Shown here: one piece after another, positions 1 through 52,895 of the stretch
How positions within the stretch are numbered: position 1 is the stretch's first letter
Layout of the letters: every line of letters starts with the position of its first letter
NCBI GenBank assembly: GCA_022823365.1
Contig: JAJDXG010000006.1
Coordinates: forward strand, 1-55,862
From: Gemmatimonadota bacterium
GTDB taxonomy: Bacteria; Gemmatimonadota; Gemmatimonadetes; Longimicrobiales; Gaopeijiaceae
Direction of reading: 5' to 3'
Length of the DNA stretch: 55,862 nucleotides
The notes under the pieces: model-generated
Database searches by the model: none
Told to the model about the DNA's origin: nothing
What the model saw: only the letters and a program-made list of their open reading frames with translations
Position numbers and translations under genes: made by a program

Positions 1-1817
1 AGGATGTCGTCCTCGACCCACATGTTGTGGGTGCCGAACTCGGACACCTCGTAGCGCGCCACCATCTCGGGCGCCTCGGGATCGGTGAAGTCCACGATCT
101 GGATGTACCCTGCGGTCGCGCGCGGATACCCGCCCCTGCCCGTCTCGGGGTCGTACTGGATTCGGTGGTCGGGGCCGGTTCCCGCCCAGGCGAGCCCCTC
201 GCGGCCGACGATCTCGTCGCCGGCGATGAGGTAGAACTTGCCGGTGGACTCCTGCAGGTACGGGAACACCGCGTGCGTCTGACCCGACGGAAGCGGGATG
301 TTGGTCACGAAGACGGGGTTCTCGGGCGAGCCGCCCCAGCGGCCGTTGCCGACGTCGACGACGACGATGCCGTTCTCCCACTCCGCCGAGTAGGCGATGC
401 CGTCGTGCACCCAGACGTCGTGCACGCGGCTGTCCGGATGATCGTACTCGCCCACGTAGCGCGGATTGTAGATGTCCGCCATGTCCAGGATGACGTACTT
501 GTCGCCCGCGGACAGGACGAAGAGGTGCTCGTTGGTGGCGAACATGTTGTGTACGCCGCCGGTCACGCCCTCGTCCCAGGTGGAGGCGATGGTGGGATGT
601 GCGGGATTGGCCAGGTCGAGGATCACCACCCCGTTGCGCCGGTTGGAGGCGCCCTCCCGCGAGATCACGCCGTAGCGGCCGTCGGGGGACGCCTTAACGT
701 CGTTGGTGGTGCGCGCGTCGACGATGATGGAATCGGTCTTGACGATGTTGGCCGGGTCGGTGACGTCCCACACGAAGGTGACCCCGTTCCCCATCTTGGA
801 GCCCGTGAGCGCGTAGTCGCGCCCGTCGACCCCTTCCCAGATCCACAGGTCGGTGGTGAAGACGCGTGACTCGCGCCCCTGCCCCACGATCTCGAGTTCC
901 TGCACGGCGGCCCGCCGGCTGACCCGCACCGATTCGCGCGCCGACAGATGGCCAGCGGTCGCGACCACCGTGTAGAGCCCCGGCCAGTCGGCCACGAAAC
1001 GGCCGTCGTCGACCTGCCCCGGCCCGGCGGGCGCCACGATGCTGTCGTCGGGCATGTAGGCGAGCGACCAGGTGACCGGCGCGCCCGGCACCTCGTTGCC
1101 GGCGTCGTCCAGCACGGAGGCGGCGAACTGCACCACGTCGCCGGTGAGCAGGTCGCCCCCGCCGCCGGTAAGCTGGACGGCCGTGGCCGGGAAGGCCTCA
1201 ACGGTGCGCTCCACCGAACCCCGCACCCCCTCCACCATGGCCGTCACGGTGACGGGACCGGGGCGGTGGGCGGTGACGTTGCCGAATGCGTCGACCGAGG
1301 CCACCTCGGTGTCTGAGACCGACCAGGCCACCTCGGCGGTCGGGCGCGCCGACCCGTCCGCGTGGAGCGCGGTCGCCGAGTAGCGCACGGTCGTGCCGGC
1401 GTACAGCAGGTCGCCGCCCGCCTCCACCTCGACGGTCGCAACCTCCGGCCAGTCGACCACCACCGGAATGGTGAGCTGCGCCACCGGCGCTCCGCTGGCG
1501 GGCATCACCACCATCGCCTGCACGTCGTACTGGCCGGCCTCGAAGGCCTCGATGTTCCCGTCACGAATGCGGAGCGCCCGCCGCGGCGCGCTCACCCGGA
1601 TCGGAATGTCCACCGCCGCACCCGCGGCGTCGTAGGCGGTCACCACCAGCGGCACGACATCCCCCACCCTGAGCGAAAGCTCGGCGGGCTCGGCCTCCAG
1701 CCGGGCGACCACGGTGGGATCGGGTTCCGGAGTCTGGGCGGCCAACTCCGCCGCCGACGGAAGCGCGAGCGCCGTCAGGACGACGGCTGCCGGGAGAATG
1801 AGCCTGTAAGAACGCAT
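1..1817 (-). CDS. Secreted Ig-like (BIG2) / LVIVD-repeat protein, 3' end outside window
   Basis: The frame is open from an ATG at 1817 to the window edge, about 605 residues with no stop. The ATG has a strong AGGAGG a few bases upstream. The N-terminus is a signal peptide (MRSYRLILPAAVVLTALALP). Next come Ig-like beta domains, including a BIG2-type stretch (VAWSVSDTEVASVDAFGNVT). The rest is repeats of the LVIVD type (VILDLANPAHPTIAS, YVILDMADIYNPRYVGEYD, YIQIVDFTDPEAPEMV), which form a beta-propeller. Such proteins are exported and of unknown ligand; a surface or periplasmic binding role is inference. The start overlaps the end of the upstream lipoprotein gene by 43 bases, so the two may be coupled. 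Confidence 0.85.
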   Translation of the reverse strand, partial: MRSYRLILPAAVVLTALALPSAAELAAQTPEPDPTVVARLEAEPAELSLRVGDVVPLVVTAYDAAGAAVDIPIRVSAPRRALRIRDGNIEAFEAGQYDVQAMVVMPASGAPVAQLTIPVVVDWPEVATVEVEAGGDLLYAGTTVRYSATALHADGSARPTAEVAWSVSDTEVASVDAFGNVTAHRPGPVTVTAMVEGVRGSVERTVEAFPATAVQLTGGGGDLLTGDVVQFAASVLDDAGNEVPGAPVTWSLAYMPDDSIVAPAGPGQVDDGRFVADWPGLYTVVATAGHLSARESVRVSRRAAVQELEIVGQGRESRVFTTDLWIWEGVDGRDYALTGSKMGNGVTFVWDVTDPANIVKTDSIIVDARTTNDVKASPDGRYGVISREGASNRRNGVVILDLANPAHPTIASTWDEGVTGGVHNMFATNEHLFVLSAGDKYVILDMADIYNPRYVGEYDHPDSRVHDVWVHDGIAYSAEWENGIVVVDVGNGRWGGSPENPVFVTNIPLPSGQTHAVFPYLQESTGKFYLIAGDEIVGREGLAWAGTGPDHRIQYDPETGRGGYPRATAGYIQIVDFTDPEAPEMVARYEVSEFGTHNMWVEDDI

Positions 1818-9997: not shown

Positions 9998-11320
<1,323 letters not shown>

Positions 11321-11350
11321 CTACTGGTATCTACTGTCGATTACTGGTAA
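11321..11350. repeat. Three 10-bp tandem direct repeats between dctM and dctP
   Basis: Immediately after the dctM stop the sequence reads CTACTGGTAT, CTACTGTCGA, TTACTGGTAA: three consecutive copies of a YTACTG-type decamer, one per helical turn. The 78-bp gap lies between convergent genes, so this is not an obvious promoter. It could be a protein-binding array, part of a transcript end, or simple slippage. Confidence 0.45.
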
Positions 11351-11398
11351 ATATCGGTCCCCGATCGCGCCGCTCCCCCCCTGCGCACCGCCGTCGGG

Positions 11399-12628
<1,230 letters not shown>

Positions 12629-32054: not shown

Positions 32055-32569
32055 TGATGGAGCGAACCAGGATGAGTCAGGAACGTCGTCCCGAAGCGGT
32101 GCCCGCCGCGGCCCGCCCCGGTGAGGAAGTGACCGTTTCGATGGACCGGCTTCCCTACGCGGCCGTCTACATCGGCTTCGGGGCGCTGGGCGGCAACCAC
32201 CAGCTGCTCACGCAGGAAGAGACGGATGCGAACGGGCTGCTCTCGGCGACCGTGCGCCTGCCGGACTGGGCCACGCCCGACCTCAAGCACTTCTTCTTTC
32301 TGGCGGGCTTCGACCAGCGGCCCTTTGCGACCTCGCACGAGTTTCACGTGGCCGACGAAGACGGGGTGTTCCGGGTCGACGGAGAGATCACCGACGAAGG
32401 ACTGGCCTGCCCCACTATGCGCAACGGCGACGATCGCCTCTACACCCTGGAGGGGAACACCGACGGGATTGCGGCGGGCGATCGGGTGGTTTTACGGGCA
32501 ACCCTCGTGGCGGACCCCCTGTGCGCGGAGGGCGTGTCGATCGAGGTGCGCGATGCGCGGGTTCGGTAG
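32051..32569 (+). CDS. Hypothetical protein with DUF5818-like C-terminal domain
   Basis: 172 residues, start ATG overlapping the upstream stop (ATGA); a second ATG nearby (MSQERRP) is possible. N-terminal half: an Ig/FN3-like strand pattern (AAYIGFGALGG-type region and TDANGLLSATVRLPDW). C-terminal half: FRVDGEITDEGLACPTMRN, then LYTLEGNTDGIAAGDRVVLR, then CAEGVSIEVRDARV, the OB-like pattern of DUF5818 where paired cysteines (C in ACPT and LCAEG) are conserved. No signal peptide. Function unknown; its coupling to exported hydrolases is notable. Confidence 0.65.
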   Translation: MMMERTRMSQERRPEAVPAAARPGEEVTVSMDRLPYAAVYIGFGALGGNHQLLTQEETDANGLLSATVRLPDWATPDLKHFFFLAGFDQRPFATSHEFHVADEDGVFRVDGEITDEGLACPTMRNGDDRLYTLEGNTDGIAAGDRVVLRATLVADPLCAEGVSIEVRDARVR

Positions 32570-34205
32570 GGTGACGACGAAGTTCGCCAACCGCGGGCGC
32601 CGCGATGTCAGTACGCGACGCCGGCTGGCGGCCATCGGGCTGCTGTTCCTCTCGACGGCCTGTGAAGCCCCCGAAGCCGCGCCCGTCGTGGAGGAAGCGC
32701 CCGACATCGACGTCGTCGAACTCACCGCCGAGCAGATCCAGGCCGACTACGCCGAGGGCCGCTACACAGCCGTTCAACTCGCGCAGGCGTTCCTTGACCG
32801 AACAGAGCGCTACGAAGACCTCTACAACGCGTTCATCTCGATGAACCCCGATGCGCTGGCGACCGCCGCCGCCCTGGACCGCGAGTACGCCTCCACCGGC
32901 CCTCGCGGCCCGCTGCACGGGGTGCCGGTGGTGATCAAGGACAACATCGACCAGGCGGGCCAGGTCACCACCGCCGGCTACGACGGCTTCAGCGCGGCCA
33001 CCGGCGGCGTGGACATGATCCCCGACGACGATGCCGCGGTCGTAACCCGCCTGCGCGAAGCCGGCGCCGTCATTCTCGGAAAGACGAACCTGCCTGACTT
33101 CGCCGGACACGGCACGCGCACCGAGAGCTCGGTGGCCGGGGTCACCCTGAACGCCTACGACGTCAACCGCGTCCCCGGGGGGTCGAGCGGCGGCACGGCC
33201 ACGGCCGTCAACGCCAGCTTTGCCGTGCTCGGGCTGGGAACCGAGACCGGCGGATCGATCCAGAACCCTTCTGCGGCGCAGGCCCTCGTGGGGGTGAAGC
33301 CCACCTACGGGCTGGTCCCACTCGAGGGTGTGGTGCCGCTGAACGGCAGCTACGCCGACGTGGTCGGGCCCATGGCGAAGACCGTGCAGGACGCCGCAGC
33401 AGCCCTGGACGCGCTCGCCGGGCCCACCCCGGAGGACTTGGCCACCTACGCCGCGTCGGGCAACATGCCGGAGGACGGCTATGCCGCCGCCCTCGACCCG
33501 GCCGCCCTGGCCGGCGCGCGCTTCGGACTGGTGGGCGAGGGCTGGCGCGACACCTGGCTGCCGCTCGCCGAGGAAACCGAGGCGATATACCGCGAGGCGA
33601 TCGCTACCATCGAAGAACGGGGTGCCGCGACCGTGGAGGATCCATTCGCGGGCACCGGCTTCGTCGAACTCTACGCGGAGCGCCCGCGCGTCCCGTCCGC
33701 CTCCGCCTACGACATGCTCAACTACTTCCGGGGCCTCGGTCCCGGGGCTGCGTTCCACAGCGTCGAGGAGTGGGAGGCGCTGTCGGGCAGGCCCTTCCGC
33801 GACCGCGAGGACAGCGAGCGCCCACCCCCGGCGCGCCCCAGCGCCACCGAAGAAGGGGACGCCTTCCAAGGCTGGCGGGCGGAGATCCGTGCGCTGTTCC
33901 GCAGTGTGCTCGAAGACAGCGATCTGGACGGCCTGTTCTTTCCCCAGGCCGGCGCGCCCATCGGCGACCTGGTCGAGGATCCAGAGCGTCCCGACTTCAA
34001 TCCCAACAATCATCCCGAACTGCCCAGCAATGTCATCAACGATATTGGACTACCCGTGGTGACCGTGCCTTTCGGCTATTACGCGGACGGAACGCCTTTC
34101 GTGCTCGCCTTCATCGGAGACCTCTGGACCGAGGCGGCGCTACTGGGCTACGCCTACGACCTGGAACAGGCCACGAAGGCGCGAGTCCCACCCCAACTGA
34201 GGTAG
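32553..34205 (+). CDS. Amidase signature-family lipoprotein
   Basis: 550 residues from the ATG at 32553 (GAGGTG upstream), overlapping the previous gene by 17 bases; a GTG at 32571 is an alternative. Lipobox LLFLSTACEAP. The Ser-cisSer-Lys triad is complete: Lys in VPVVIKDNIDQ, cis-Ser in GGSSGGTATAVNA and nucleophile Ser in LGTETGGSIQNPS. Amidase-signature enzymes hydrolyse C-terminal or small amides, including peptide amides and N-acyl compounds. It is probably extracytoplasmic, working with the upstream serine hydrolase. It ends convergently to the radical SAM gene, 45 bases away. Confidence 0.9.
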   Translation: MRGFGRVTTKFANRGRRDVSTRRRLAAIGLLFLSTACEAPEAAPVVEEAPDIDVVELTAEQIQADYAEGRYTAVQLAQAFLDRTERYEDLYNAFISMNPDALATAAALDREYASTGPRGPLHGVPVVIKDNIDQAGQVTTAGYDGFSAATGGVDMIPDDDAAVVTRLREAGAVILGKTNLPDFAGHGTRTESSVAGVTLNAYDVNRVPGGSSGGTATAVNASFAVLGLGTETGGSIQNPSAAQALVGVKPTYGLVPLEGVVPLNGSYADVVGPMAKTVQDAAAALDALAGPTPEDLATYAASGNMPEDGYAAALDPAALAGARFGLVGEGWRDTWLPLAEETEAIYREAIATIEERGAATVEDPFAGTGFVELYAERPRVPSASAYDMLNYFRGLGPGAAFHSVEEWEALSGRPFRDREDSERPPPARPSATEEGDAFQGWRAEIRALFRSVLEDSDLDGLFFPQAGAPIGDLVEDPERPDFNPNNHPELPSNVINDIGLPVVTVPFGYYADGTPFVLAFIGDLWTEAALLGYAYDLEQATKARVPPQLR

Positions 34206-34250
34206 GCGAACGAGGAAGCGTACGCCTGCGAAGGAAGCGGAATCCTCCAC

Positions 34251-36050
34251 CTAGTTTCGGCGGGGATGCTTCCCAACCACCGGCAGCGCGCCGGATCGCG
34301 ACCCCGTGCCGCGGGTGCTGTCGGCAGGCGTCGTCCAATCGGTATCCTCGACGGCGGACCGGAAGGACGCCACGGCATCGTCGATACCGTCCGCATCGAA
34401 GCGAAAGTCGGCGGGTATCGACCGATGGCGTGAGTTCACGCGGGCCAGAAGCGCCTTCCTCCGGCCGTCAACGGTGTCCTCATTCGTCCCGGAACGCGAA
34501 GCGGCCTCGCGGAACGCCCTCAACTCGGCTTCCATGAAGTCCTCGAACCCCTGAAGCACCTTCTGCTGACGGGTGAACTTCTCGAAGTGATGGCCCAGCG
34601 CTGCCAGACGGATCGCCTCCGGCAGCATGGAAGGATGGTCCTTCGACACCTTCGCGATGTACCTGCTGTAGGCGGGGATCTGGCTCGGCGAAAGCCGCCG
34701 GCGCACCGTCATCAGCCCCAGATAAAGCGCGCTCCTGCTCACGGCCGGGGTCAGGTGGGGCAGCGGCTTCAGGTGCTTCAGCAAGGTCAGGCAGCGCTCG
34801 AAGTAGTTCTCGAGGGACGGGTCGTAAACCGTGGAGATCACGCGCAGGTAGCCCTTGAGCAATGTGTCGGCATCCATCTCCGGCACGAAGTTCAGGGCCG
34901 TTGCGCTGGTGCCGACGGGGACGTCCAGGAGCCGGCCTTCCGACTGCAGCCGCGTGTAGAGATCCGTTCCCTTCAGCGCAGTCAGCAACCCGACCAGCGC
35001 CATGGGAATGCCGGCGTCCTGAATGAACTGGATCTGGGCGTCGAAGACCTGCTCATCGTCTCCGTCGAGCCCGAGGATGAACCCGCCCATCACCTGCATT
35101 CCCCTGCGCTGGATCTTTCGGACGGCGTTCAGCAGATAGTCCTGTTCGCGCTTGCTGATGTTCTGCGGTTTCTTCGTGATGGCGAGCGCCTTCGGGTTCG
35201 GAGTCTCGATGCCCAGGAAGACGCCGTTGAAGCCGGCCTCGATCATTGCGTCCATCACCGAGTCCATTCGGGCCAGGTTCACGCTCGCTTCGGTGAACAG
35301 CTGGAAGGGATACCGGTGCGCCCGCTGCCACTCCGCGATCGCCGGCAGCATGTTCAGGGCGTCGCGCTTGTTGCCGATGAAGTTGTCGTCGACCAGAAAC
35401 ACATAGCCTCGCCAGCCCAGCCGATAGAGAGCCTCGAATTCCTCGACCATCTGTTCCGGCGACTTGGTCCGGGGCACGCGGCCATAGAGCTTGGTAATGT
35501 CGCAGAACTCACAGTCGAACGGGCAGCCGCGCGAGAACTGCACGCACATCGCGTGATAGGCCCCGAGGTCGATGAGGTCGAAGCGCGGGACGGGCGTCCG
35601 CGTGACATCGGGCTTTCGCGGCTCGCGATAGATGGTTCGTGCCCTGCCTTCCTCGAGATCCCGCAGGAACCGGGGGAAGGTTTCCTCCGCTTCGTCGAGC
35701 ACGAAGTAGTCGACTCCCGCGATCTCCTGATGGAATGATGTCGGATAGGGCCCTCCCGCGACCACGGGAACGCCGGCGCGGTTGCAGCGCTCGATCACCT
35801 TCCGCAGGGACTCCCTCTGCACGATCATGGTCGACGTAAACACCATGTCGGCCCAATCCAGATCGGAGTCCCTCAGGTCCGACACATTCATGTCGACGAC
35901 CCGAAGATCGTATTCCGGGGGAAACATCGACGCGACGGTCAGGAGTCCGAGCGGGGGAAAGGCCGCCTTCACGCCGAGCATCTCCAGGGCGTAGTTGATT
36001 CCCCAGTAGGAGGGCGGATAGTCGGGGTAGACCAGCAGGGCATTGCGCAT
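34251..36050 (-). CDS. Cobalamin-binding radical SAM protein with DUF4070-like domain
   Basis: 599 residues from the ATG at 36050. Residues 1-140 are a B12-binding Rossmann domain (FPPLGLLTVASMFPPEYDL, PVVAGGPYPTSFHQEIAGVD) without a DxHxxG motif. The radical SAM core begins at 165 with the cluster cysteines C176, C180 and C183 in SRGCPFDCEFCDI. The part after about 385 (LVGLLTALKGTDLYTRLQSE, ALNFVPEMDADTLLKGYLRV) matches DUF4070. That architecture is shared by hopanoid C-2 methylase HpnP and other lipid-modifying radical SAM enzymes, so C-methylation or C-C bond chemistry on an alkyl chain is the leading guess. Last gene of the PKS operon, two bases after the upstream stop. Confidence 0.87.
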   Translation of the reverse strand: MRNALLVYPDYPPSYWGINYALEMLGVKAAFPPLGLLTVASMFPPEYDLRVVDMNVSDLRDSDLDWADMVFTSTMIVQRESLRKVIERCNRAGVPVVAGGPYPTSFHQEIAGVDYFVLDEAEETFPRFLRDLEEGRARTIYREPRKPDVTRTPVPRFDLIDLGAYHAMCVQFSRGCPFDCEFCDITKLYGRVPRTKSPEQMVEEFEALYRLGWRGYVFLVDDNFIGNKRDALNMLPAIAEWQRAHRYPFQLFTEASVNLARMDSVMDAMIEAGFNGVFLGIETPNPKALAITKKPQNISKREQDYLLNAVRKIQRRGMQVMGGFILGLDGDDEQVFDAQIQFIQDAGIPMALVGLLTALKGTDLYTRLQSEGRLLDVPVGTSATALNFVPEMDADTLLKGYLRVISTVYDPSLENYFERCLTLLKHLKPLPHLTPAVSRSALYLGLMTVRRRLSPSQIPAYSRYIAKVSKDHPSMLPEAIRLAALGHHFEKFTRQQKVLQGFEDFMEAELRAFREAASRSGTNEDTVDGRRKALLARVNSRHRSIPADFRFDADGIDDAVASFRSAVEDTDWTTPADSTRGTGSRSGALPVVGKHPRRN

Positions 36051-36052
36051 GA

Positions 36053-38572
36053 TCAAACCCCCGACTCCCGGAGTCCTCTCTCCGAGACGAAATCGCGATA
36101 CCGGGCGAATGCGTCGTCGATCTGCTCGCGCGTCAGCCCGAAGTCCGCGATGTCGTACCGGTGACGCTTCTCGGTGCGGCGCCTCTCCGCCTGTTCCGCC
36201 AGCCAGACGTCCATCGCGGTCACGGCCGCGGGCTCGAGCGTCCATCCGAAATAGTCGTAGATGCGGCCCACGACCGCCAGCGGGTCCTGGACCAGATCGT
36301 AGTAGCTGACATCCATCCAGCGGTGCTCGAGCTCCGGGTGCGAGTTCCGAAAGCTCACCGCCCGATCGAGAAGGTGGCTCATCGCGCGCAGCTGCTCGGC
36401 CCCAAGTACCTCCGCCGGGCGCGGCTCGCTGATGTTGGCGCGGATCCGTTCGACCAGGCTGCACCAGGATCCCATGAACTGAACGGGTTCCCGGTGCGTC
36501 TGGATGAAGAGGGCGTCCGGATAGGTCTCAAACAGAGCTTCGAGTTCCCTGAGATGAGTCGGCATCTTGAAAAGCCATTGGCCCTGCATGCCGGGATGGC
36601 TTTGCCTGCGCTGATAGTGGTAGTGCTGCATGACCCGGCGATGGTGCCGGTAGGCCTCCCGCGAGCCGTTTTCCTCCAGCCAGCTATCGTACTGCGGGAT
36701 GTGATATCGGGCTCCGAACACCCTGGCTTTGAACGACAGCCGAAGGATCGGGATATCCTCCTCCGGCTCGTCGGTAGAGATCTGGTGGACCCCGGAAAAG
36801 GAGTCGATGATGCCGGAGGCCTCGAACACGTCGGCGGCCAGCGCGCGCCGAGGATCTGCCGTCGTGCCCGCGACCCTCGCATAGTCGCCGCTGGGGATCA
36901 CCGGTTCCACGTACTCGAAGGCTCGCAGCGCCCAGAATCTGCTGTCCCGGGCCATGAGGCGGTGGAGGTAGGTTGTCCCGGTGCGGTTGATTCCCGCGAT
37001 GAAAACAGGTTGAACGACGTTCTGTCGGCCGATCTCCGGGTACCGCTGCCGTTCGGCGGCCAGCTCGGCGTTGTTGCGCAGCATCCGGCACATGTCGAAG
37101 GTGACGTGACCGATCCGGGTCTCGAGCAAACCCGCTTCCGGTGATTTCAATGCCTCCACAAGCCGCCCCAGTCCTTCGAGCATCCACTCCGGGTAGGTCG
37201 AATCGAAGCACAGGCCGCGATCGTCCGCGTAACGCCTTGCCTGCCTGAGCAGGTGCTCAAGCTTCAGGCGCCGGCGGGGAGTGGGGTGCGGCCATGCCTC
37301 TGGATGTTCCCTGACCCATCGGTTGTGACGAACGTACCTCGTGAGGGGACCGGGCCAATCGATGGTGACCGGACAGTCTTCACGAATCGCGCGGTCGCTC
37401 ACGGGCAAGGAGGTGGCCGAGTCGCTGCCCTGCAACCAGTAGGGGCCGAATTGATCGAACAGTGCCCAGTATCGGGCGAGGGGCGAGGCGGCACCCCGAG
37501 CCTGGCAGGCCCGCTTGAAGGCCTGATAGGAAACCTCCGGATAGTCCAGACCGAGTTCTTCAACGCGAACGGTGGTGTATGACGGGGTTGGATTGCAGCA
37601 GTTGTAGATCGTGGAGCGACGCTCCGGGTTGAACGAGATCTCGGTGCAGATACGGCTCAGTGTGTCGACGGGGTCGCTGTTTGACTGCAACGTGAATCCC
37701 CGTGGAATCATCCCCACATCCACCACCGCCGCGAAGAGGCGCTGGGTGATGTTGGCTGGCTCCGCGTACCCGGTCGAAGCCATGCTCGTCTGGGCCAATC
37801 GGAAGATCCCGACAGGAAGACCGACGACATTGCCGAAGAGGATCGCCTGTTCGGCTACGAGCTTGCTCCATGGATACCCGAGGAGGCCAAGCGGAAACGT
37901 TCGCTTCATGCTCGAGAGGTCCGGCTGCACCTGGTCGCCAATGCGGCTGTCCCGGTACTCGCGCGCAAAGAAGCAGAAGTACTCGGGGAAGATCCCCATC
38001 GTCGAAGCGTAGAAGAGATGCTTGTAGCGCGTATGCAGACACAGATCCAGCACGTTTCGGATGCTGAACGCGTTGACGCGGCGAATGGCGCGGTAGGACG
38101 AGGAGAGACTCAGGGTCGCTGCGAGATGGTATACGGCGTCGATCTCCTCGCAGAGTACGCGAAACCGGGAGTCCGACAGCCCGAAGCGCGGTTCGGCAAC
38201 ATCCCCGGCGTGCACGCGAATCCGTGGAGCGAAGCCGTCGTCCCAGACTTCCGCGTGCTCCATGTTCGCCCTCAGCCGCTCGAAACCCTGCTCGGGACGG
38301 TCGCCGCGCACGATGCAATGCACGGTGAGCCGCGAATCCCGCGAGAGCAGGTCGCGCACCAGGAAACGACCGAGGAAGCCGGTCGCACCGGTGACGAGGA
38401 CGTGGCGGAAGTCGTTGGGCGAAACAGCCTTGGCGAGCGGCGCACGGGTGACCGCCTCGCGGACGAAGCCGCGCAGCGCAGTCAGATCGATTTGACAGTG
38501 GGGCGGCAGGCTGCCCGTCAGCGGCGGTATGCGCCGCCGGGTTGCCGTCGCCGGACCGCCGCCCTGGTTCAA
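36053..38572 (-). CDS. Thioester reductase–sulfotransferase fusion protein
   Basis: 839 residues. Residues about 50-420 form an NAD(P)-dependent thioester-reductase (NRPS/PKS R-domain, SDR) unit with TGATGFLG (61-68), the catalytic Ser/Thr in FYASTMG, and Y233-x3-K237 in GYPWSKLVAEQ. Residues about 450-830 form a sulfotransferase with the PAPS 5'-phosphosulfate loop GINRTGTTYLH (527-537) and the 3'-phosphate region THREPVQFMGSW. It should release an ACP-bound chain as aldehyde or alcohol and sulfate a hydroxyl. Its ATG overlaps the PKS stop as ATGA. I know no characterised protein with exactly this fusion; it could also act as two independent tailoring steps. Confidence 0.88.
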   Translation of the reverse strand: MNQGGGPATATRRRIPPLTGSLPPHCQIDLTALRGFVREAVTRAPLAKAVSPNDFRHVLVTGATGFLGRFLVRDLLSRDSRLTVHCIVRGDRPEQGFERLRANMEHAEVWDDGFAPRIRVHAGDVAEPRFGLSDSRFRVLCEEIDAVYHLAATLSLSSSYRAIRRVNAFSIRNVLDLCLHTRYKHLFYASTMGIFPEYFCFFAREYRDSRIGDQVQPDLSSMKRTFPLGLLGYPWSKLVAEQAILFGNVVGLPVGIFRLAQTSMASTGYAEPANITQRLFAAVVDVGMIPRGFTLQSNSDPVDTLSRICTEISFNPERRSTIYNCCNPTPSYTTVRVEELGLDYPEVSYQAFKRACQARGAASPLARYWALFDQFGPYWLQGSDSATSLPVSDRAIREDCPVTIDWPGPLTRYVRHNRWVREHPEAWPHPTPRRRLKLEHLLRQARRYADDRGLCFDSTYPEWMLEGLGRLVEALKSPEAGLLETRIGHVTFDMCRMLRNNAELAAERQRYPEIGRQNVVQPVFIAGINRTGTTYLHRLMARDSRFWALRAFEYVEPVIPSGDYARVAGTTADPRRALAADVFEASGIIDSFSGVHQISTDEPEEDIPILRLSFKARVFGARYHIPQYDSWLEENGSREAYRHHRRVMQHYHYQRRQSHPGMQGQWLFKMPTHLRELEALFETYPDALFIQTHREPVQFMGSWCSLVERIRANISEPRPAEVLGAEQLRAMSHLLDRAVSFRNSHPELEHRWMDVSYYDLVQDPLAVVGRIYDYFGWTLEPAAVTAMDVWLAEQAERRRTEKRHRYDIADFGLTREQIDDAFARYRDFVSERGLRESGV

Positions 38573-41500
38573 CGGCTGCTGGCGGGCACCACTCCCGCTC
38601 CGCCGGCTGTCTGTGAAGCTCCTCTCCCACCGGCCGATGGCATTCCGGAACCGGCCATCCGGCCGCCGTCGACCGTTGCGCGCTCACCGTTGGGGAAGTG
38701 ATCCTCGGGCTGGTTCGCGAAGGGTGAGCGGCGCCTGCGCACCCGCTGCCGGAACTCATCGCCAGCACCCGCTCCTTCATCTCCCCCGCCTGCGATCTCT
38801 TCCTCGGCGTCCGAGTCGGCTCCGTGCACGATGGCGTGCGCGAGGGAGAGCGCTGACGCCGTGGTCATAAGCTCGAGCGCACTGACCTGGTGGTTGAACT
38901 GCGTCTGAACGAACGCGCCCAGTTCGGCGACCGAGATCGAGGTGAGCCCGAAGCTCGAGAGCGGTTCGGAGACATCGCCCTCGTCGTGACCGCACAACTC
39001 CGCGACCTTGGCGGAGATCTGCGCCATGACACCCTCAACGGTCAACTCGCCGCCGGCGTCCACCTGGAACGCCGCCTGATTGGACAACAGGCGTCCGTTG
39101 CGCATGTAATCGGGAGAACGGACCGTCCACGGAGGGGCCGCGAACAGTGCGGTCACGAGATGATCGTGGTCCGCCATGGTGCGCATGGCGTAGTCGAGGT
39201 TCGCGATCGCGAAGTTGGCGCTGACGGTGGTCATGCCGGCAGCCCGCATCATGCGCATGACGTGGAGGCTCCGAGCGGCCATCCCGACCTCGGTCACCGG
39301 GCCCAGATTGTACGAAAAACCCGGGAGGCCGCGCCTGCGTCGCCACGCAGCCAGCCCGTCGAGGAAGCCGCTGGCGCCGCTGTAGTTGACCTGTCCCAGG
39401 TTTCCGAAGGTCGATGCGATCGAGGAGAACAGCACGAAGTAGTCGAGATCCCGGTCGATGGTGGCGTGATGAAGGTTGAGCGCGCCCATGGCCTTGGGCG
39501 CGAACACCCTGGCCAACGAATCGGGCGACGTGTCCAGGAAAGACCGGTCCTCCAGCGTTCCGGCGAGGTGGAACACGCCCTTGAGGGGTCGCTCGAGGCC
39601 CGCGATACAGCGGTTGACATCCGCCGCGTTCCTCACGTCCCCCGGTACGATGTCGATCTCGTAGTCGTGGGCCATCTTGGACAGCGTCGTGATCTGGCGG
39701 ATCCACTCGACGTCGCGGCGCCGCGCGGGGTCACGGTCCATCAGGGTCAGATGGCGCGCACCGGCAGCGATCAGGTAGGGCACGAAGCGCAGGCCGAAGC
39801 CACCCAGGCCGCCAGTGACCAGATAGGTCGCGTCCGGATCCAGGAAGGGACGGGTGTCCGCGATGCCGAATCCCCGGTCCGCGGGATCGGCCGGAGCCTG
39901 AAGAACCAGCTTGCCCTGGTGCTGTCCGGTCGTCATCAGGCGAAGCGCCTTCGCGTAGTCGCGGTATGGAAAAACCGTCAGCGCTGGGGGCGCGACCGCC
40001 CCTTCGTCCATGAGGTCGATGCAGGCCTGGGAGAGAACGTGCGACAGTACCGGGTCGTCGAGCATCAGACGGTCCACATCGATCGCGGCAAAGCGCAGAT
40101 TCTTGCGGAAGACGCGCATGCTGAGAGAGTTGTCGGTGTAGATGTCGACCTTTCCGATCTCGCAGTGCCACCCGGAAGGACGCAGCGACTCGAGGCAGAG
40201 CGCGATGTGGTGGCCGGCGAGAGAATTCAATACGACATCGACGCCCTCGCCGCCCGTCGCCTGCATGAGATCGTCGTACCACTGGTGGCTGTGCGAATCG
40301 AACGCTCCGCGCACGCCCATCTCGAGCAGCCGGGCACGTTTGCTGTCGTTGCCGGCCGTCGCGAAAACCTCCGCCCCGACGTGCCTGGCCAGCGCGATGG
40401 CAGCCTGTCCGACACCTCCCATCGCCGAGTGAATGAGGACTCGCTGGCCCTTTCTCAGACGTGCGAGATGAATCAGCGAATAGTATGCGGTCACGTAGAC
40501 GGAGAGCGCCGAGGCGGCCTCTTCCATGCTCAGCCCGGCTGGCTTCCGGAATGCGAGGTGCTCGTTTACCACCACGCGGTTCGCGATGCAGCCGCCCACC
40601 GTAAGCGCCACCTCATCCCCGACCTTCAGGCGCGCGACCCCGGAGCCAGCGCGCCGAACCACCCCGCTGGCCTCGATGCCGACCTCACGCCCCAGCGCCG
40701 AGCGCTCGTAGGCCATGGCCGGCAGGAGCCCAAGCGTGACCATGACGTCGCGAAAGTTGAGCGCGGCCGCGCCGACCTCGACTTCCACATCCGACGGCCC
40801 CAGCCGCGGAAGCTCGTATGTGGTCATCCGGAGCCCGCTCACCTGGCCGGGATTGTCCAGGCGAAGCCGATAGGGCGGTTCCTCACCATCGGGCACGAGC
40901 GGCGAGCGCTGCCGGACGCTGACGATGCGCGGAACCCATGGGCGCGCCTCTCTGATGGCCAGTTCGCGCTCGCGCAGATCGCAGCGGCTGAGACGGGCCA
41001 GGACCTCCAGGTCATCCTTCGAGCCGATGTCCACAAGCCTGAAGTCGATCCGCGTGTCCTCGGCGAGGAGTTCCAGGGCGATGCTGCGCACCGCCCCCCA
41101 GAGCGCGCTGCCGCGCGGATCGTCCACGTCGCAGACGGCGCCGCGCGTCACCACCGTCAGGCGGCAGTCACGGGTCGCGCTCTCCAGCCGGAACGGCGCC
41201 AGGGCCTGAAGAAACGCCACGAACTCCCAGATGGCGCGCTCGCCCGTGGGGTCTATCGGATCCGTACCGACAAAGAAGTCGATCGCTTCCAGATCGGCCG
41301 CTCCCGGCGATTCGTCCAGCCAACTGAAATCGGTTGTCTGGATGGTCGACCAGGGGACGTGGTCAACCGCCGGCGAGTCGAGGAGGTCGAGCCAGTTCGC
41401 CACCAGGCTGCCCGGTTCGCCGATCACCCAGCGGGAGCCCGGAGTGGCGGCTGCTCGTCTGGCTTCGGGCTCGTCCGCAGTCTCACCCTCGCCACCGGCG

Positions 41501-44500
41501 CCGCTTCCCCCGGTCGCGTCGAAGAGGTCGGGGGGGGCCTGCAGCAACGTCGCGCGTGACCCTGCGTGGATCGTAGACCAGCCGGCGCCGGCTTCGACTG
41601 CATCCCCTTCGCCATGGCGGACGAGCGCCAGACCGCCGCCGACCACGAGCCGATGAACGAGCGCCCACTGCTCGGGCCCATAACCGCAGGCTTCCTCATG
41701 CAGGAGCACGAGCTCGGCGGCGGCGGGTCGCAACAGCCCTGAATCCATTTCGAGTTCGCGGGCCCCGGTGGAACACGCATCGAGCGAGTCGAACCGAATC
41801 GCGGCGTCCTGGTGGTTGAAGGCGTCGTGGAGCGCGCGGGTGTGCTCCTCGTCCGCGCCGAGGATCCAATACTCGGTCTGGGCGTCCTGGTCCGACAAGC
41901 GTGACAGACACCGGTTCAGAATCGCCTCGGTGGGCTCACGCCGGCCCGCGATCTCGATCACGCGGCAGGCGTACCGGTGGCCGAAGGCACCCTCTTCAAG
42001 CGCCGCAATCAGCGCGGCGGGATCGACTTCGCCCTCCCGGACCGCGTCCTCGACCGGCGCCGCCGGCGACACGAACTTGGGTTGCCAGCGAATCAGGTGC
42101 TTGCTGTCCGGGACATCGCTCCAGCGGGGGTTGCTGTTGAAGGAGTGGTATTCTCCGATGTGGGCGATCAACTGTCCGGTGGCGTGATCGTAGAAGCTGA
42201 GGCGGCCGATATAGAGCTCGCCGAGCGGTTTGTTGTACTGGCCGCGCTCATCCACGTCGAACCAGTCCCCGGTGTCGACCAGGAAGCAGCTGATGCGCGG
42301 CCCCGTCGGGGGGCGCAGGAAGGTGATGTCACAAGCCCGCTGCGGCATCGAAAAGAAATCCGGCAGCCGCATCAGGTAGCGCAGGAAGATCTGCAGCCCG
42401 CCGTCGGTCAACGGGGGATACAGCAGATAGCCTTCCTCCCGGCCGGAGGCCCACAGTTCGCCGTCCACTTCGATATCCAGTAGGAGGTCCGTCGAACCGG
42501 AGTCCATGTCGATCTGGCGGACGCTGCGGAATTCGGGCCCGAACTCGAAGGCATCGCCCACGACCGCTTCGATGTGGTCGTAGAACTCCTCGCCCGTCGC
42601 GAGGGGTTGGGGATCGAAGTCGGAAGCCAGAACATCGTCGAGCGTCGGGAGGGTGTCGATGGCGTAGTCTTCGTCCACCCGGCGCACCCTGCCACGGCAG
42701 TGCAGGGTGCCCTCGTCGTCGTTCTCGAAGGAACGCGTGGAGATGGTGAAGGTGAACTGGTCGGGAGCATTCGGAACCGGGAACAGGGCCGTCTGTAGCC
42801 GCACCGGCGTCTTTCCGACGGGCGTATGCTGCAGGAACTCGATCTCATCGATGTGGACGGGATCCCCGGCGAACGCCTGCAGCAGCAACTCGATGTAGCC
42901 GGCGGCGGGAATGATCGGCGCCCGGTGGACGCGATGGTCGGTCAGCCAGGGGAAGTCGCTTTCGGATAGCCGCGACTCGAACAGAATGTGGTCGCAGGCG
43001 ACCCGGTGCCCGACGAGCGGGCCGTGCGAGTACTCTCCGCGCTGGACGAACATCTCGTCGTCGACCAGATCGTCGTGGTTCGTCGTCTGTTCCTGCGGGT
43101 GTCCGGGGAGGAGGTGGGCGATGGGCTCCGGCTTCGGGTACTGGGACGCGAAGTCCAGCTCGACGCCGGCGCGGTACAGCGCCCCCAGCGTCCCCTGGAA
43201 GCCGAGGCACACGTCCTGGCCCTTCATGAGTGTGGGGATGCAGGCCGGAACGGACGCGCCGCCCTCCAGGCACTGCCGGATGAGCGGCTGCAGAGGGCCG
43301 TGCGGCGCGATCTCCAGGACGGCGTCGGGTCGGTGATCCCGTTTCACCGTCTCCACCGCGGCCGCGAAGCGAACCGGCTCCCGGATGTTGGACCACCAGT
43401 ATGCGGCATCCAGACGGTGCTCCGCATCGCCGGTGACCGACGACACCATGGGAACATCGGCTTCGAAGGCGCATTCATTCAGGAAGGACAGCGAAGCGAT
43501 GACATCGCCGTGCAGCGGATCCATGGCCGTGGAGTGGAACGCGATGTTCCCGGGGATCAGGCGATTCTGAAGGTCGCGGCGGTCCAGCTCCGCCATGACG
43601 GGCTTCAGCGCGGACTCCTTGCCGCATATTACCGTGTTGGCGGGCGAATTCTCGCAGGCGATCTCAACCCGGGCGGGTCGGTGGTTTCCGGACTGGAATG
43701 AAACGCCGAGCTCGCTCAGCACGTCCTCCACGCCCGGGCGGTCGAGGCCGATCGCCAGCATGCGTCCGGAGCCGGCCACCCGTTGCTGCAAAGTCGCGCG
43801 GTGGTAGACCAGACGCGTAGCCTCGGCAAGCGAAAGCGCCCCGCAGGCGTAGGCGGCGGCTACCTCGCCGGAGCTGTGTCCGACAACGCAAGCCGGCTGT
43901 ACGCCCCAGGTGGAGAGCAGTTCCACCAGTGCGCACTGAATCATGAAGATCGAGGGCTGCGCCAGGCGGACTTCGTTCAATTCCTCCTGGCTCGCCTTGA
44001 AGCAGGCCTCCCGCAGCGACACTTCCGAATGCTTGCGCCACTCCTCCTCGATGGCGTCGACCACACGGCGGAAGACCGGGTCGGCGTCGTAGAGCGCCCG
44101 CCCGCATCCCGCCCATTGCGTACCCTGCCCGGAGAACACCATGGCCACACGGCGCTCGCCCTCCTCGATGGTGGACACCGGAGACGGCTCTTCCGCGAAC
44201 GCGTCCAGCACCTCGGCGAGGTTGGCCCGGTCTCGCACGGCGAACGCAGCTCTCACCGCAAACTGGCTGCGGCGCCGACCGAGATTGCCCGCCAGCGTGT
44301 AGAGGTCGACCTCGCGCTCGTCGAGAACCTTCCGCAGGCTCCGTGCACTCTCCACCAGAGCGTTCGTGGTGCGCGCGGACATCGGTATCATGTACCCGGC
44401 GTCGGGGGCCAACGGTACCGACCACACACTGGGTCGCTGCGGGCGGTACTCCCTCACTACGCAGTGCCCGTTGGCGCCGCCGAACCCGAAGGAGTTGATC

Positions 44501-45768
44501 CCGACCACGACCGGTTGGTCGGGAAAGGGCTCGCAGGCGGTCTGCACCTGCATCGGGCAGCTGTCGAAGTCGATCTCGAGGTTCGGCGCCAGGAAATTCT
44601 TCGAAATCGGGGCATAGGTACGGTGCTGCATCATCAGGATGACCTTGAGAAGCGCGGCGCTGAACGCCGCCGCTTCCAGGTGCCCCACGTTGCTCTTCAC
44701 ACTTGCTACGCGTAGCGGGACCTCGCGCTCGACGCCCCCGAACGCCTCGGCGATCGCGTTGCCCTCGATGCGGTCGCCGACAACGGTGCCGGTCGCGTGC
44801 GCTTCGATATAGTCGAAATCCTCCGGTCCCAGGCCCGCTCGCCGGCAGGCCGTGCGCATCAGTTCGACCTGCGAGTGGCGGGTCGGCGCGGTGATATAGC
44901 GCCCCTGGGCCAGACCCACCGCGTCGTCTGCCGTCCCTGCGGTGTTGACCGCCGTGGCCTCGATCACCGCAAAGATGTGGTCCCCATCCCTTTCGGCCGC
45001 TTCCAGTGGCTTGATCGCGAAGACGAATGCCCCTTCCGCGCGCACATATCCGTTGGCGTCGGCATCGAAGGAATGACACCTGCCGTCCGGACTGATCACG
45101 CCCAGGGCATTGAACGAAGCGCTGCACCGGGCCGAACCAAGGTAGGTGGCGGCCCCGACCAATGCCTGATCACAGTCGCCCTGCCGTATCGCGTTCACCG
45201 CCGTGTGCAGTGCGGTGAGGGACGCCGAGCAGGCCGTGGAGCACGCGACCGACGGCCCCATGAGGTTGAGGTGGTAGGATATGCGGTTCGCCAGCATCGA
45301 GGCGTCGATGCTGAGGATGGAGAACTCGTTGGTGCCGTAGAGCGCCCGCCAGTTGGCCGTGGACGCGACCTGGGCGCCGATGAAGACGCCGGTCGCGCTG
45401 TTGCGCAGCGCGTTCAGATCCCACCCGGCGTGCTCGCAGCTCTCCCATGAGCAGCCGAGCAGCATCCGGATCTGCGGATCCATGTAGGCCATCTCATTGC
45501 GCGAGACCCCGAAGAGGCTGGGATCCATCCGCTGCTCCCCGTCGTCGCGTATCAGACCCTCGTACGCGCTCCCGAACCGTCCCGGGCCCGAGAATCCGCC
45601 GATCGGCTGATAGCCCCGGCCGTAGCGGTCGATGACCGGCTCCCGAACGATCTCGCGCCTGCTCAGGAGATCCCAGAAGTCGTCATCGGTGCGGATACCC
45701 CCCGGCATCCGGTAGGCGTATCCGACGATGGCGACGGGTTCTCTCGACCTGTCACTGCCTGAGTTCAT
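38569..45768 (-). CDS. Type I polyketide/fatty-acid synthase, KS-AT-DH-(degenerate MT)-ER-KR-ACP
   Basis: 2399 residues from the ATG at 45768 (GGGAG upstream); an extension to 45864 is possible. KS 10-440: C180 in CSTACSASL, H324 in EAHATGT, H363 in KSNVGHLEA. AT 545-850: S632 in GHSSGEV, and IAFH at 742-745, which favours malonyl-CoA. DH 905-1210: H945 and D1122. Degenerate methyltransferase about 1225-1400. ER 1640-1955 with the NADPH loop SAMGGVGQAA. KR 1980-2200 with TGGLGGFG and Y2129. ACP about 2245-2315 with phosphopantetheine Ser2277 in GLTSIS. A low-complexity tail follows. Full reductive loop implies a saturated, possibly iteratively built alkyl chain. No thioesterase; the next gene supplies reductive release. 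Confidence 0.95.
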   Translation of the reverse strand: MNSGSDRSREPVAIVGYAYRMPGGIRTDDDFWDLLSRREIVREPVIDRYGRGYQPIGGFSGPGRFGSAYEGLIRDDGEQRMDPSLFGVSRNEMAYMDPQIRMLLGCSWESCEHAGWDLNALRNSATGVFIGAQVASTANWRALYGTNEFSILSIDASMLANRISYHLNLMGPSVACSTACSASLTALHTAVNAIRQGDCDQALVGAATYLGSARCSASFNALGVISPDGRCHSFDADANGYVRAEGAFVFAIKPLEAAERDGDHIFAVIEATAVNTAGTADDAVGLAQGRYITAPTRHSQVELMRTACRRAGLGPEDFDYIEAHATGTVVGDRIEGNAIAEAFGGVEREVPLRVASVKSNVGHLEAAAFSAALLKVILMMQHRTYAPISKNFLAPNLEIDFDSCPMQVQTACEPFPDQPVVVGINSFGFGGANGHCVVREYRPQRPSVWSVPLAPDAGYMIPMSARTTNALVESARSLRKVLDEREVDLYTLAGNLGRRRSQFAVRAAFAVRDRANLAEVLDAFAEEPSPVSTIEEGERRVAMVFSGQGTQWAGCGRALYDADPVFRRVVDAIEEEWRKHSEVSLREACFKASQEELNEVRLAQPSIFMIQCALVELLSTWGVQPACVVGHSSGEVAAAYACGALSLAEATRLVYHRATLQQRVAGSGRMLAIGLDRPGVEDVLSELGVSFQSGNHRPARVEIACENSPANTVICGKESALKPVMAELDRRDLQNRLIPGNIAFHSTAMDPLHGDVIASLSFLNECAFEADVPMVSSVTGDAEHRLDAAYWWSNIREPVRFAAAVETVKRDHRPDAVLEIAPHGPLQPLIRQCLEGGASVPACIPTLMKGQDVCLGFQGTLGALYRAGVELDFASQYPKPEPIAHLLPGHPQEQTTNHDDLVDDEMFVQRGEYSHGPLVGHRVACDHILFESRLSESDFPWLTDHRVHRAPIIPAAGYIELLLQAFAGDPVHIDEIEFLQHTPVGKTPVRLQTALFPVPNAPDQFTFTISTRSFENDDEGTLHCRGRVRRVDEDYAIDTLPTLDDVLASDFDPQPLATGEEFYDHIEAVVGDAFEFGPEFRSVRQIDMDSGSTDLLLDIEVDGELWASGREEGYLLYPPLTDGGLQIFLRYLMRLPDFFSMPQRACDITFLRPPTGPRISCFLVDTGDWFDVDERGQYNKPLGELYIGRLSFYDHATGQLIAHIGEYHSFNSNPRWSDVPDSKHLIRWQPKFVSPAAPVEDAVREGEVDPAALIAALEEGAFGHRYACRVIEIAGRREPTEAILNRCLSRLSDQDAQTEYWILGADEEHTRALHDAFNHQDAAIRFDSLDACSTGARELEMDSGLLRPAAAELVLLHEEACGYGPEQWALVHRLVVGGGLALVRHGEGDAVEAGAGWSTIHAGSRATLLQAPPDLFDATGGSGAGGEGETADEPEARRAAATPGSRWVIGEPGSLVANWLDLLDSPAVDHVPWSTIQTTDFSWLDESPGAADLEAIDFFVGTDPIDPTGERAIWEFVAFLQALAPFRLESATRDCRLTVVTRGAVCDVDDPRGSALWGAVRSIALELLAEDTRIDFRLVDIGSKDDLEVLARLSRCDLRERELAIREARPWVPRIVSVRQRSPLVPDGEEPPYRLRLDNPGQVSGLRMTTYELPRLGPSDVEVEVGAAALNFRDVMVTLGLLPAMAYERSALGREVGIEASGVVRRAGSGVARLKVGDEVALTVGGCIANRVVVNEHLAFRKPAGLSMEEAASALSVYVTAYYSLIHLARLRKGQRVLIHSAMGGVGQAAIALARHVGAEVFATAGNDSKRARLLEMGVRGAFDSHSHQWYDDLMQATGGEGVDVVLNSLAGHHIALCLESLRPSGWHCEIGKVDIYTDNSLSMRVFRKNLRFAAIDVDRLMLDDPVLSHVLSQACIDLMDEGAVAPPALTVFPYRDYAKALRLMTTGQHQGKLVLQAPADPADRGFGIADTRPFLDPDATYLVTGGLGGFGLRFVPYLIAAGARHLTLMDRDPARRRDVEWIRQITTLSKMAHDYEIDIVPGDVRNAADVNRCIAGLERPLKGVFHLAGTLEDRSFLDTSPDSLARVFAPKAMGALNLHHATIDRDLDYFVLFSSIASTFGNLGQVNYSGASGFLDGLAAWRRRRGLPGFSYNLGPVTEVGMAARSLHVMRMMRAAGMTTVSANFAIANLDYAMRTMADHDHLVTALFAAPPWTVRSPDYMRNGRLLSNQAAFQVDAGGELTVEGVMAQISAKVAELCGHDEGDVSEPLSSFGLTSISVAELGAFVQTQFNHQVSALELMTTASALSLAHAIVHGADSDAEEEIAGGGDEGAGAGDEFRQRVRRRRSPFANQPEDHFPNGERATVDGGRMAGSGMPSAGGRGASQTAGGAGVVPASSR

Positions 45769-45863
45769 TGTGGCTCCCGCCGCTCGCGATTCCCTGTACC
45801 TGTCGCTGGCCGCCGCGCGTGGCTTGATCTCTTCGCGGTCGCCCGTCGCTGCCATCCACGGCA

Positions 45864-45913
45864 TTGATATGAGGATCGCGTGGAATGTCGCAAAACTACA
45901 AGATAATGTCGCA
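45864..45913 (-). promoter_or_regulatory. PKS promoter with paired 9-bp direct repeats
   Basis: Minus strand: TTGCGA (45893-45888) and TATCAA (45869-45864), 18 bp apart, form a candidate promoter about 90 bases before the PKS ATG. The 9-mer TGCGACATT occurs twice on this strand (45913-45905 and 45892-45884), start-to-start 21 bp, i.e. two helical turns; the promoter-proximal copy overlaps the -35. This is the geometry of an activator or repressor bound on one DNA face. A near-identical pair lies at 47786-47815. Confidence 0.5.
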
Positions 45914-45998
45914 GCCGCGGTCGGAAACCGACAGGCGCGGAACTCATCGAAGGCGACCGATCCTGCTCCGTCGGGCCTCGGTTCTGTATGTTCCGAGC

Positions 45999-47060
45999 AT
46001 GTCGACCCAGGTATCCGTCCGGCGTCGCCGCCCGGTTCTCGTCACGGGCGGAAACGGCTACGTCGCATCCTGGCTGGTCAGGAGGCTGCTCGAACGCGGT
46101 TTCGACGTCCACGCGACGGTGCGCGACACGGGGGATCCCGCCAGGACCGGCCACCTGAGAGCCGTCGCGCGGCGGCGTCCCGGAAAGCTGAGCCTGTTCG
46201 ACGCCGATCTCCTGGACGCCGGCGGGTTCGACCGCGCAATGGCGGGCTGCCGCATCGTCTTCCACACGGCCTCGCCGCTGATCGTGCGCGACGTGGTGGA
46301 TCCCGAAGGCGACCTGGTGCAGCCGGCTGTCCGCGGCACCCGCCACGTCCTGGAAGCCGCGAACCGGACTCGCTCCGTCCGGCGCGTGGTGCTCACCTCA
46401 AGTATCGTGGCCGTCTACGGCGACGCAGCGGATCTCGAGGGAACCGGGGCCGACCGATTCGACGAGAGCCATTGGAACTCAACCAGCAATGTGCGCCACC
46501 AGCCCTATTCCTACTCCAAGACGCTGGCGGAGCGGCTGGCATGGGAGATGGCGGACGGGCAGGACCGGTGGGATCTGGTAGCCGTGAACCCCGGCCTCGT
46601 GCTCGGACCGGGCCTTGGCCGCAACACGAGCGCCGAGGGCGTCCTGATCATGCGCGACCTCGGCAACGGCTACTATCGCTTCGGCGCCCCCGAACTCGAA
46701 TACGCCATCGTGGATGTGCGCGATGTCGCGGAGGGTCACCTGCGCGCCGGATTGATCCCGGAGGCCCGAGGCCGCCACATCCTGGTCAGTGAGACGCTGA
46801 GGCTGATCGAAATCGCTTCGATTCTGCGCCGTCACTTCGGCGACGCCTATCCATTCCCGCGTCAAACCGTGTCCAAAGTGGCTGCGCTGATGCTCGCGCC
46901 CCGACGGCGAATCCCGCAGGCCGTGGCGAGGCGCAACGTCGGCTATCCGCTGAGGTTCGACAACCGATACGCGCGAGACGCTCTTGGAATGACCTTCCGC
47001 CCGGCGGCGGAATCAATCGTCGACCACTTCCGGCAATTGCTCGACGACGGCCTGGTCTAA
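45999..47060 (+). CDS. NAD(P)-dependent epimerase/dihydroflavonol-reductase-like SDR
   Basis: 353 residues from the ATG at 45999; an in-frame start at 45885 would lie inside the repeat element and is less likely. Extended SDR: nucleotide loop VTGGNGYVASWLVRR, catalytic Ser in VVLTSSIVAVYG, Y-x3-K in YSYSKTLAER, with VNPGLVLGPGLG after it, as in dihydroflavonol/cinnamoyl-CoA reductases and 3-beta-HSD-like enzymes. It reduces or oxidises a carbonyl/hydroxyl of an unknown substrate. Divergent from the PKS with a shared 230-bp regulatory region, so involvement in the same pathway is plausible but unproven. Confidence 0.88.
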   Translation: MSTQVSVRRRRPVLVTGGNGYVASWLVRRLLERGFDVHATVRDTGDPARTGHLRAVARRRPGKLSLFDADLLDAGGFDRAMAGCRIVFHTASPLIVRDVVDPEGDLVQPAVRGTRHVLEAANRTRSVRRVVLTSSIVAVYGDAADLEGTGADRFDESHWNSTSNVRHQPYSYSKTLAERLAWEMADGQDRWDLVAVNPGLVLGPGLGRNTSAEGVLIMRDLGNGYYRFGAPELEYAIVDVRDVAEGHLRAGLIPEARGRHILVSETLRLIEIASILRRHFGDAYPFPRQTVSKVAALMLAPRRRIPQAVARRNVGYPLRFDNRYARDALGMTFRPAAESIVDHFRQLLDDGLV

Positions 47061-52831: not shown

Positions 52832-52895
52832 GGCGTCACCTCCGGTTGCCTGCCCGGGGCCTGCTGCCCGGGCCCCTCCATCCGTCCCATGGGAA

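Follow-up and report, generated by a model that had tools for sequence, protein, structure and literature searches.

The coding region at 36053-38572 on the minus strand of the window (the whole 55,862-nucleotide stretch analysed, which is the entire contig C36 of a 63-contig, 3.82-Mb genome that is 98% complete) is, as judged from its sequence and gene context, swfB of an swf operon. Its product, SwfB, consists of a thioester reductase (R) fused to a sulfotransferase (ST), and probably releases the polyketide chain reductively as a fatty alcohol that it then sulfates to an alkyl sulfate. This reading draws on the intact fusion, the folds of both halves and the catalytic and cofactor residues kept in them, purifying selection, operon membership, genes for PAPS formation and carrier activation in the same genome, and the linked inheritance of SwfB with the ACP of the adjacent PKS. 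From these, we infer each catalytic step, substrate and product of the SwfB pathway as follows. SwfA, a single fully reducing PKS module, would build an acyl chain on its own ACP. The R domain of SwfB would dock on that ACP and, to go by its residues, free the chain as a primary fatty alcohol using two NADPH, and the abutting ST half would use PAPS to sulfate the new hydroxyl, yielding a long-chain alkyl sulfate. SwfC, where present, would methylate the chain by B12/radical SAM chemistry. A preliminary description of this DNA had proposed a reduced and sulfated chain end, or else sulfation of another hydroxyl, with this protein as the off-loading enzyme; the evidence favours the first outcome as likely and agrees with the off-loading role.

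The swf (sponge symbiont widespread FAS) operon was described by Della Sala et al. in 2013 from sponge metagenomes, and comprises swfA (PKS), swfB (R and ST) and swfC (radical SAM) (PMC3908369). The published SwfB lengths are 832 and 839 aa (PMC3908369 Tables 1-2). Novelty of the fusion is not supported, as the 2013 authors had already reported it and proposed conversion of the terminal carboxylate to a primary sulfate; their swf cluster gave no new compound in E. coli (PMC3908369). A later study of SwfB was not found in a literature search. What is added here is the Gemmatimonadota hosts, a residue-level prediction of alcohol release, and the exchange of swfB. The features of the operon in the window are as follows.

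38569..45864, minus strand: swfA, a KS-AT-DH-ER-KR-ACP PKS, assigned from Pfam domains and swfA signature motifs.
38815..39039, minus strand: ACP of SwfA, residues about 2276-2350, co-inherited with swfB (PP-binding match at 2282-2345; distance comparisons).
38569..38572, minus strand: TTGA, in which the swfA stop (TGA) overlaps the swfB start (TTG).
36053..38572, minus strand: swfB, thioester reductase-sulfotransferase fusion of 839 aa, an uninterrupted open reading frame with a TTG start; swf membership after PMC3908369.
34251..36050, minus strand: swfC, a 599-aa B12-binding radical SAM protein with DUF4070, assigned from Pfam domains and sequence identity; likely ATG at 36050.
45885..47060, plus strand: gene for an extended SDR/epimerase-like protein, oriented divergently from swfA; it may be a fourth swf-linked gene.

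The preliminary description had given the extent of swfB correctly and left the strand unstated; read on the plus strand, 36053-38572 contains stops. All three swf genes lie on one strand, and the unit they form (45864-34251, minus strand) is bounded by plus-strand genes for an amidase (32226-34205) and the SDR. SwfA has the domain order of the published swf PKS, KS-AT-DH-ER-KR-ACP by Pfam, and contains all five published motifs, DPQ(I/V)R, HATGT, GHSSGE, IAFH and QCALVEL. Across 23 SwfA proteins these were found in 22, 23, 22, 23 and 19, respectively, with slightly loosened patterns used for IAFH and QCALVEL. The window copy of SwfB also resembles the published one in length (839 aa in the PS11G3 copy), in having R followed by ST, in the same SwfA motifs, and in the location of swfB between the KS-AT-DH-ER-KR-ACP gene and a B12 radical SAM gene (PMC3908369). 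The likely swfC ATG is two bases past the swfB stop, and CPFDCEFC (CX3CX2C) is present in 21 of 21 SwfC.

Gene order was compared in 24 distinct loci. Twelve have A-B-C, four A-C-B and four C-A-B; in one, A-B is followed by C about 1.7 kb further on, two have A-B without C in the fetched stretch, and one is cut by a contig end. Direct coupling to the PKS gene, which the preliminary description had used to argue for off-loading, is thus seen in 20 of the 24 loci, where swfB directly follows swfA, and fails in the other four, where swfC intervenes. Of 8 loci examined, 6 have TTGA where swfB begins, the TGA being verified as the swfA stop in the window only. A homologue of the SDR at 45885-47060, with 70-94% identity, adjoins swf in 11 of 23 other loci from two families with varied gene orders, and an epimerase is listed near swfA on fosmid PSA11D7 from 2013 (PMC3908369). 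Separately, a run of genes near swf (50244-55399, minus strand) for a flavin amine oxidoreductase, ferrochelatase and class-III aminotransferase suggests that a heme biosynthesis cluster adjoins the operon.

A thioester reductase and a PAPS sulfotransferase in one chain, as the preliminary description had proposed, are recovered by Pfam, with NAD_binding_4 at residues 60-307 (E=2.2e-46) and Sulfotransfer_3 at 522-780 (E=8e-35). Its three motifs are where it had placed them, with TGATGFLG at 61-68, GYPWSK (including its YPWSK) at 232-237 and GINRTGTTYLH at 527-537. The structure prediction it had called for gave an AlphaFold2 model of the whole protein from 44 alignment rows (pLDDT 87.8, pTM 0.87); an earlier model from 9 rows (pLDDT 47.5) was discarded. 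The domains and sites of SwfB are as follows.

37268..38512, minus strand: R (thioester reductase) domain, residues 21-435, from VIA-align to 4w4t/4u7w (Z 38.7) and NAD_binding_4.
36098..37267, minus strand: ST (PAPS sulfotransferase) domain, residues about 436-825, from VIA-align to 2zq5 (Stf1; model range 433..825) and Sulfotransfer_3.
37862..37876, minus strand: catalytic YPWSK of R (Y233 and K237, with T191 upstream).
37793..37795, minus strand: Ala260, the equivalent of NiCAR Asp984 and SrCAR Asp998 in sequence alignments.
36962..36994, minus strand: 5'-phosphosulfate loop GINRTGTTYLH (527-537).
36467..36496, minus strand: 3'-phosphate loop HREPVQFMGS (693-702).

Residues 21-435 of the model match the MxaA terminal reductase over 383-384 residues (VIA-align Z 38.7, rmsd 2.9-3.0), the second-best R-domain structure entry being 8v1x, which we take to be CpkC (Z 37.4). 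SwfB and MxaA (4u7w/4w4t) share this fold, YxxxK, and Gly or Ala in place of the CAR Asp; however, the MxaA reductase is the terminal domain of a PKS-NRPS, whereas SwfB stands as a protein of its own with a sulfotransferase attached. Residues 433-825 match Mycobacterium tuberculosis Stf1 (2zq5) with Z 38.2 over 354 residues (rmsd 2.6), and the ST half matches Stf9 (2z6v) with Z 37.0. The mycobacterial enzymes share with SwfB both the fold and the 5'-PSB and 3'-PB PAPS loops, but stand alone. The R and ST domains abut in the model with no spacer. Contiguous R and ST are also described at the C-terminus of the coccidian type I FAS, though there they are part of a multimodular megasynthase (PMC3908369).

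The active-site residues T191, Y233 and K237 are present in 25 of 25 SwfB, as is R89. In the 5'-phosphosulfate loop, G527, R530, G532, T533 and T534 are found in 25 of 25 and T531 and H537 in 24, and H693, R694 and S702 of the 3'-phosphate loop are in 25 of 25; the loss of PAPS-binding residues, named in the preliminary description as grounds for doubt, is therefore not what is seen. Over seven pairs, dN/dS is 0.05-0.29 for the R half and 0.14-0.32 for the ST half, and both are under purifying selection. An APS kinase domain, within a 619-aa frame, and a PPTase are encoded in the same genome. A second sulfotransferase (387-aa frame) lies about 1.6 kb from that APS kinase domain (G000:C21:7824-10591; L001, L036), which places the PAPS supply with another sulfation system. 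Stand-alone sulfotransferases with around 30-38% identity to the SwfB ST, in frames of about 424-485 aa, occur in the swf-bearing genera g61 and g25 (L089-L098). On a Planktothrix agardhii plasmid (L088 4247-11764), a type I PKS with a terminal sulfotransferase domain precedes an alcohol dehydrogenase gene; the domain has a 30.6% match to the ST half of SwfB, and none to the R half.

Position 260 bears on how far the reduction would go. A change of the equivalent Asp998 in SrCAR permits over-reduction. Across 25 SwfB, this position is Ala in 7, Gly in 10, Ser in 2 and Pro in 6, and Asp in none. The aligned residue is Gly in MxaA and Mtb NRP, whose R domains give alcohols, and Asp in MmCAR, in CpkC (8v1x), whose R domain releases an aldehyde, and in NiCAR, which aligned with a gap one place off and whose placement rests on an FRxD context common with MmCAR. 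Replacement of Asp in all 25 copies predicts four-electron release, and we infer from the alignment that SwfB can carry the reduction through to the alcohol, which would also provide the hydroxyl acceptor that ST needs. The equivalent of NiCAR D984 is likewise Gly in fungal CARs (PMC5826065), and the title of the MxaA paper, cited there, speaks of primary alcohols. The R domain of the fungal NcCAR reduces octanal to the alcohol; the bacterial MmCAR reduces aldehydes too (PMC10168641), making the Asp rule a tendency and not a switch. Pro at position 260 in 6 of 25 copies also speaks against deriving four-electron release from one residue.

It is conceivable, though unlikely, that R gives an alcohol or aldehyde while ST sulfates another hydroxyl of the chain, such as one at the beta or a mid-chain position that incomplete iterative reduction has left in place, since Sulfotransfer_3 enzymes use varied acceptors. 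A mono-modular SwfA may skip reductions, as argued in PMC3908369. However, every reducing domain is recognised in SwfA by Pfam, and the spacer-free contact of ST and R in the model would favour a shared substrate end without proving it. Rather less probable is a two-electron release in which R stops at the aldehyde, this being used by another enzyme in amine, acid or epimerase-type chemistry with ST acting later. CpkC, the second-best R entry, carries Asp at the position in question and releases an aldehyde, and the SDR gene that adjoins swf in 11 of 23 other loci might be such an enzyme. Nevertheless, the CAR-type Asp is in none of the 25 SwfB, and an aldehyde offers no hydroxyl to the fused ST. 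That R lacks redox activity and serves just to cyclise the chain or pass it on is very improbable; such R* domains exist (cited in PMC3908369), but T191, Y233, K237 and R89 are invariant and dN/dS is low in the R half.

The preliminary description had compared SwfB with the cyanobacterial olefin synthases. CurM is an ST-TE protein, and it and the olefin synthases resemble swf in closing a PKS line with a sulfotransferase, but the partner is a thioesterase in CurM and a reductase in SwfB. The comparison proved weak, as the ST half matches the mycobacterial Stf1 and Stf9. No chain named CurM or olefin synthase was seen among the best 60 of 66 sequence matches or the structure matches listed, though kinship may exist all the same. 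The lack of a thioesterase partner, by contrast, was borne out: none is among the Pfam matches of SwfA, SwfB and SwfC at E up to 1. Sulfation of a beta-hydroxyl as leaving group, with decarboxylative release to a terminal alkene, is hardly credible for SwfB despite the sulfotransferase that also ends the PKS line in curacin biosynthesis (PMC3908369), given the missing thioesterase, the Stf1/Stf9 match and an R domain that, if active, would remove the carboxyl required for decarboxylation. The preferred reading is reductive release followed by sulfation of the terminal hydroxyl.

SwfB is matched at E<=1e-40 in 40 of 395 Gemmatimonadota genomes. Thirty, from four genera in two families, have one full-length fused copy each in an open frame, and the other 10 comprise ST-only proteins and fragments, of which many lie at contig ends. 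An assembly artefact joining two genes is excluded by the same 30 genomes, by the full-length fusions in the Gemmatimonadota MAG contigs L003, L004 and L005, and by the published SwfB proteins. L004, a relative with 87% identity, derives from the sponge Aplysina aerophoba (bin43, listed as BD2-11). A gammaproteobacterial MAG relative (L006) has swfB at 9950-12520 with one in-frame stop in the R half, which is either a MAG error or a broken allele. In G171, an open frame of 2040 aa suggested a PKS-R-ST megaprotein, which was rejected, as the swfA and swfB alignments end in different frames. None of 163 matching plasmid records aligns to 80% of the query at a single place, and the matches listed, ten of the 163, are to the R half only or the ST half only.

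The 2013 swf sequences had no sure host (PMC3908369), and the source organism was called unresolved in 2014 (PMC4245539), whereas the host here is assigned to Gemmatimonadota by MAG relatives. Nitrospirota, Latescibacterota and Acidobacteriota have been named as swf hosts (PMC9426513), as has Tectomicrobia (PMC10227082). No paper naming Gemmatimonadota was found by literature search or in the available sections of PMC9426513, PMC9864124, PMC10227082 and PMC4245539, and the sponge source of MAGs jk18x34bins.3 and jk18x7bins.3 was not found in those of PMC8941161.

The swf operon and its flanks differ in their identity to related genomes. Between the window and G003, the operon (34-45 kb) has 95-99% DNA identity and the right flank (46-55 kb), where one kilobase has no match, 80-92%; swf is not unique in this, as 97-99% stretches also occur at 6-8 and 10 kb. 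In the comparison with G010 and G004, identity is 91-96% in the flanks (30-34 and 46-55 kb), whereas swf falls to 68-92% with the minimum in swfB. From these alignments, species of one genus exchange alleles at the swf locus (34000-46000 of the window against L148-L157). The signal with G003 might equally stem from a chimeric MAG; this is less probable for G010 and G004, since both genomes carry one and the same allele within matching flanks.

The stretch of divergence extends from about 36.0 to 39.2 kb and includes swfB and the tail and ACP of swfA. In the SwfB tree, the G010 copy (L070) clusters with rows of genus g25 (support 100/100), and constraining the four genus-g1 copies together, a group chosen post hoc from the tree, was rejected (p-AU 1.4e-50), whereas SwfA and SwfC of L070 cluster with g1 (SH-aLRT 100 each). 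L070 and the window share 96.9% identity in KR but 85.3% in ACP, whereas the L070 ACP shares 93.3% identity with L085 and 92.0% with L005. L084, which has another PKS background, follows the same pattern, with an ACP 97.3% identical to L085 and a KR at 82.1%. In a set of 18 loci, the correlation of ACP distance with the distances of SwfB R and ST is 0.71 and 0.75, compared with 0.44 and 0.41 for KR, and the partial correlations of ACP given KR are 0.63 and 0.69 (0 of 2000 permutations). A weaker partial correlation (0.36, 1 of 2000) of KS-AT with R given ACP indicates that the PKS body is not wholly independent of SwfB.

These are signs, at the level of sequence, that swfB and the ACP-bearing tail of swfA have passed from genus to genus apart from the PKS body. 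Because the genes touch, linkage must contribute to their co-inheritance; however, swfC, which adjoins swfB on the other side, did not move with it in L070. The linked inheritance supports action of SwfB on the SwfA ACP. More tentatively, the carrier end of SwfA and SwfB may form a natural, exchangeable release cassette, which sponge symbionts of different genera would recombine near the KR-ACP junction, joining it to varying PKS bodies at one constant place in the chromosome, a reading held with somewhat less confidence than that of alcohol release and sulfation.

The swf clusters are widespread sponge PKS clusters, and the host of the first ones sequenced was disputed. The hosts, the predicted sequence of alcohol release then sulfation, and the cognate ACP-SwfB pair can guide a search for alkyl sulfates by negative-ion MS and the choice of a protein pair. 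Alkyl sulfates would escape the usual fatty-acid analysis (PMC3908369), and a common sponge lipid may therefore have been missed. If the cassette reading is true, chain-end chemistry evolves separately from chain building, and swf would show an iterative, alkyl sulfate-producing PKS whose carrier and off-loader are swapped together in nature.
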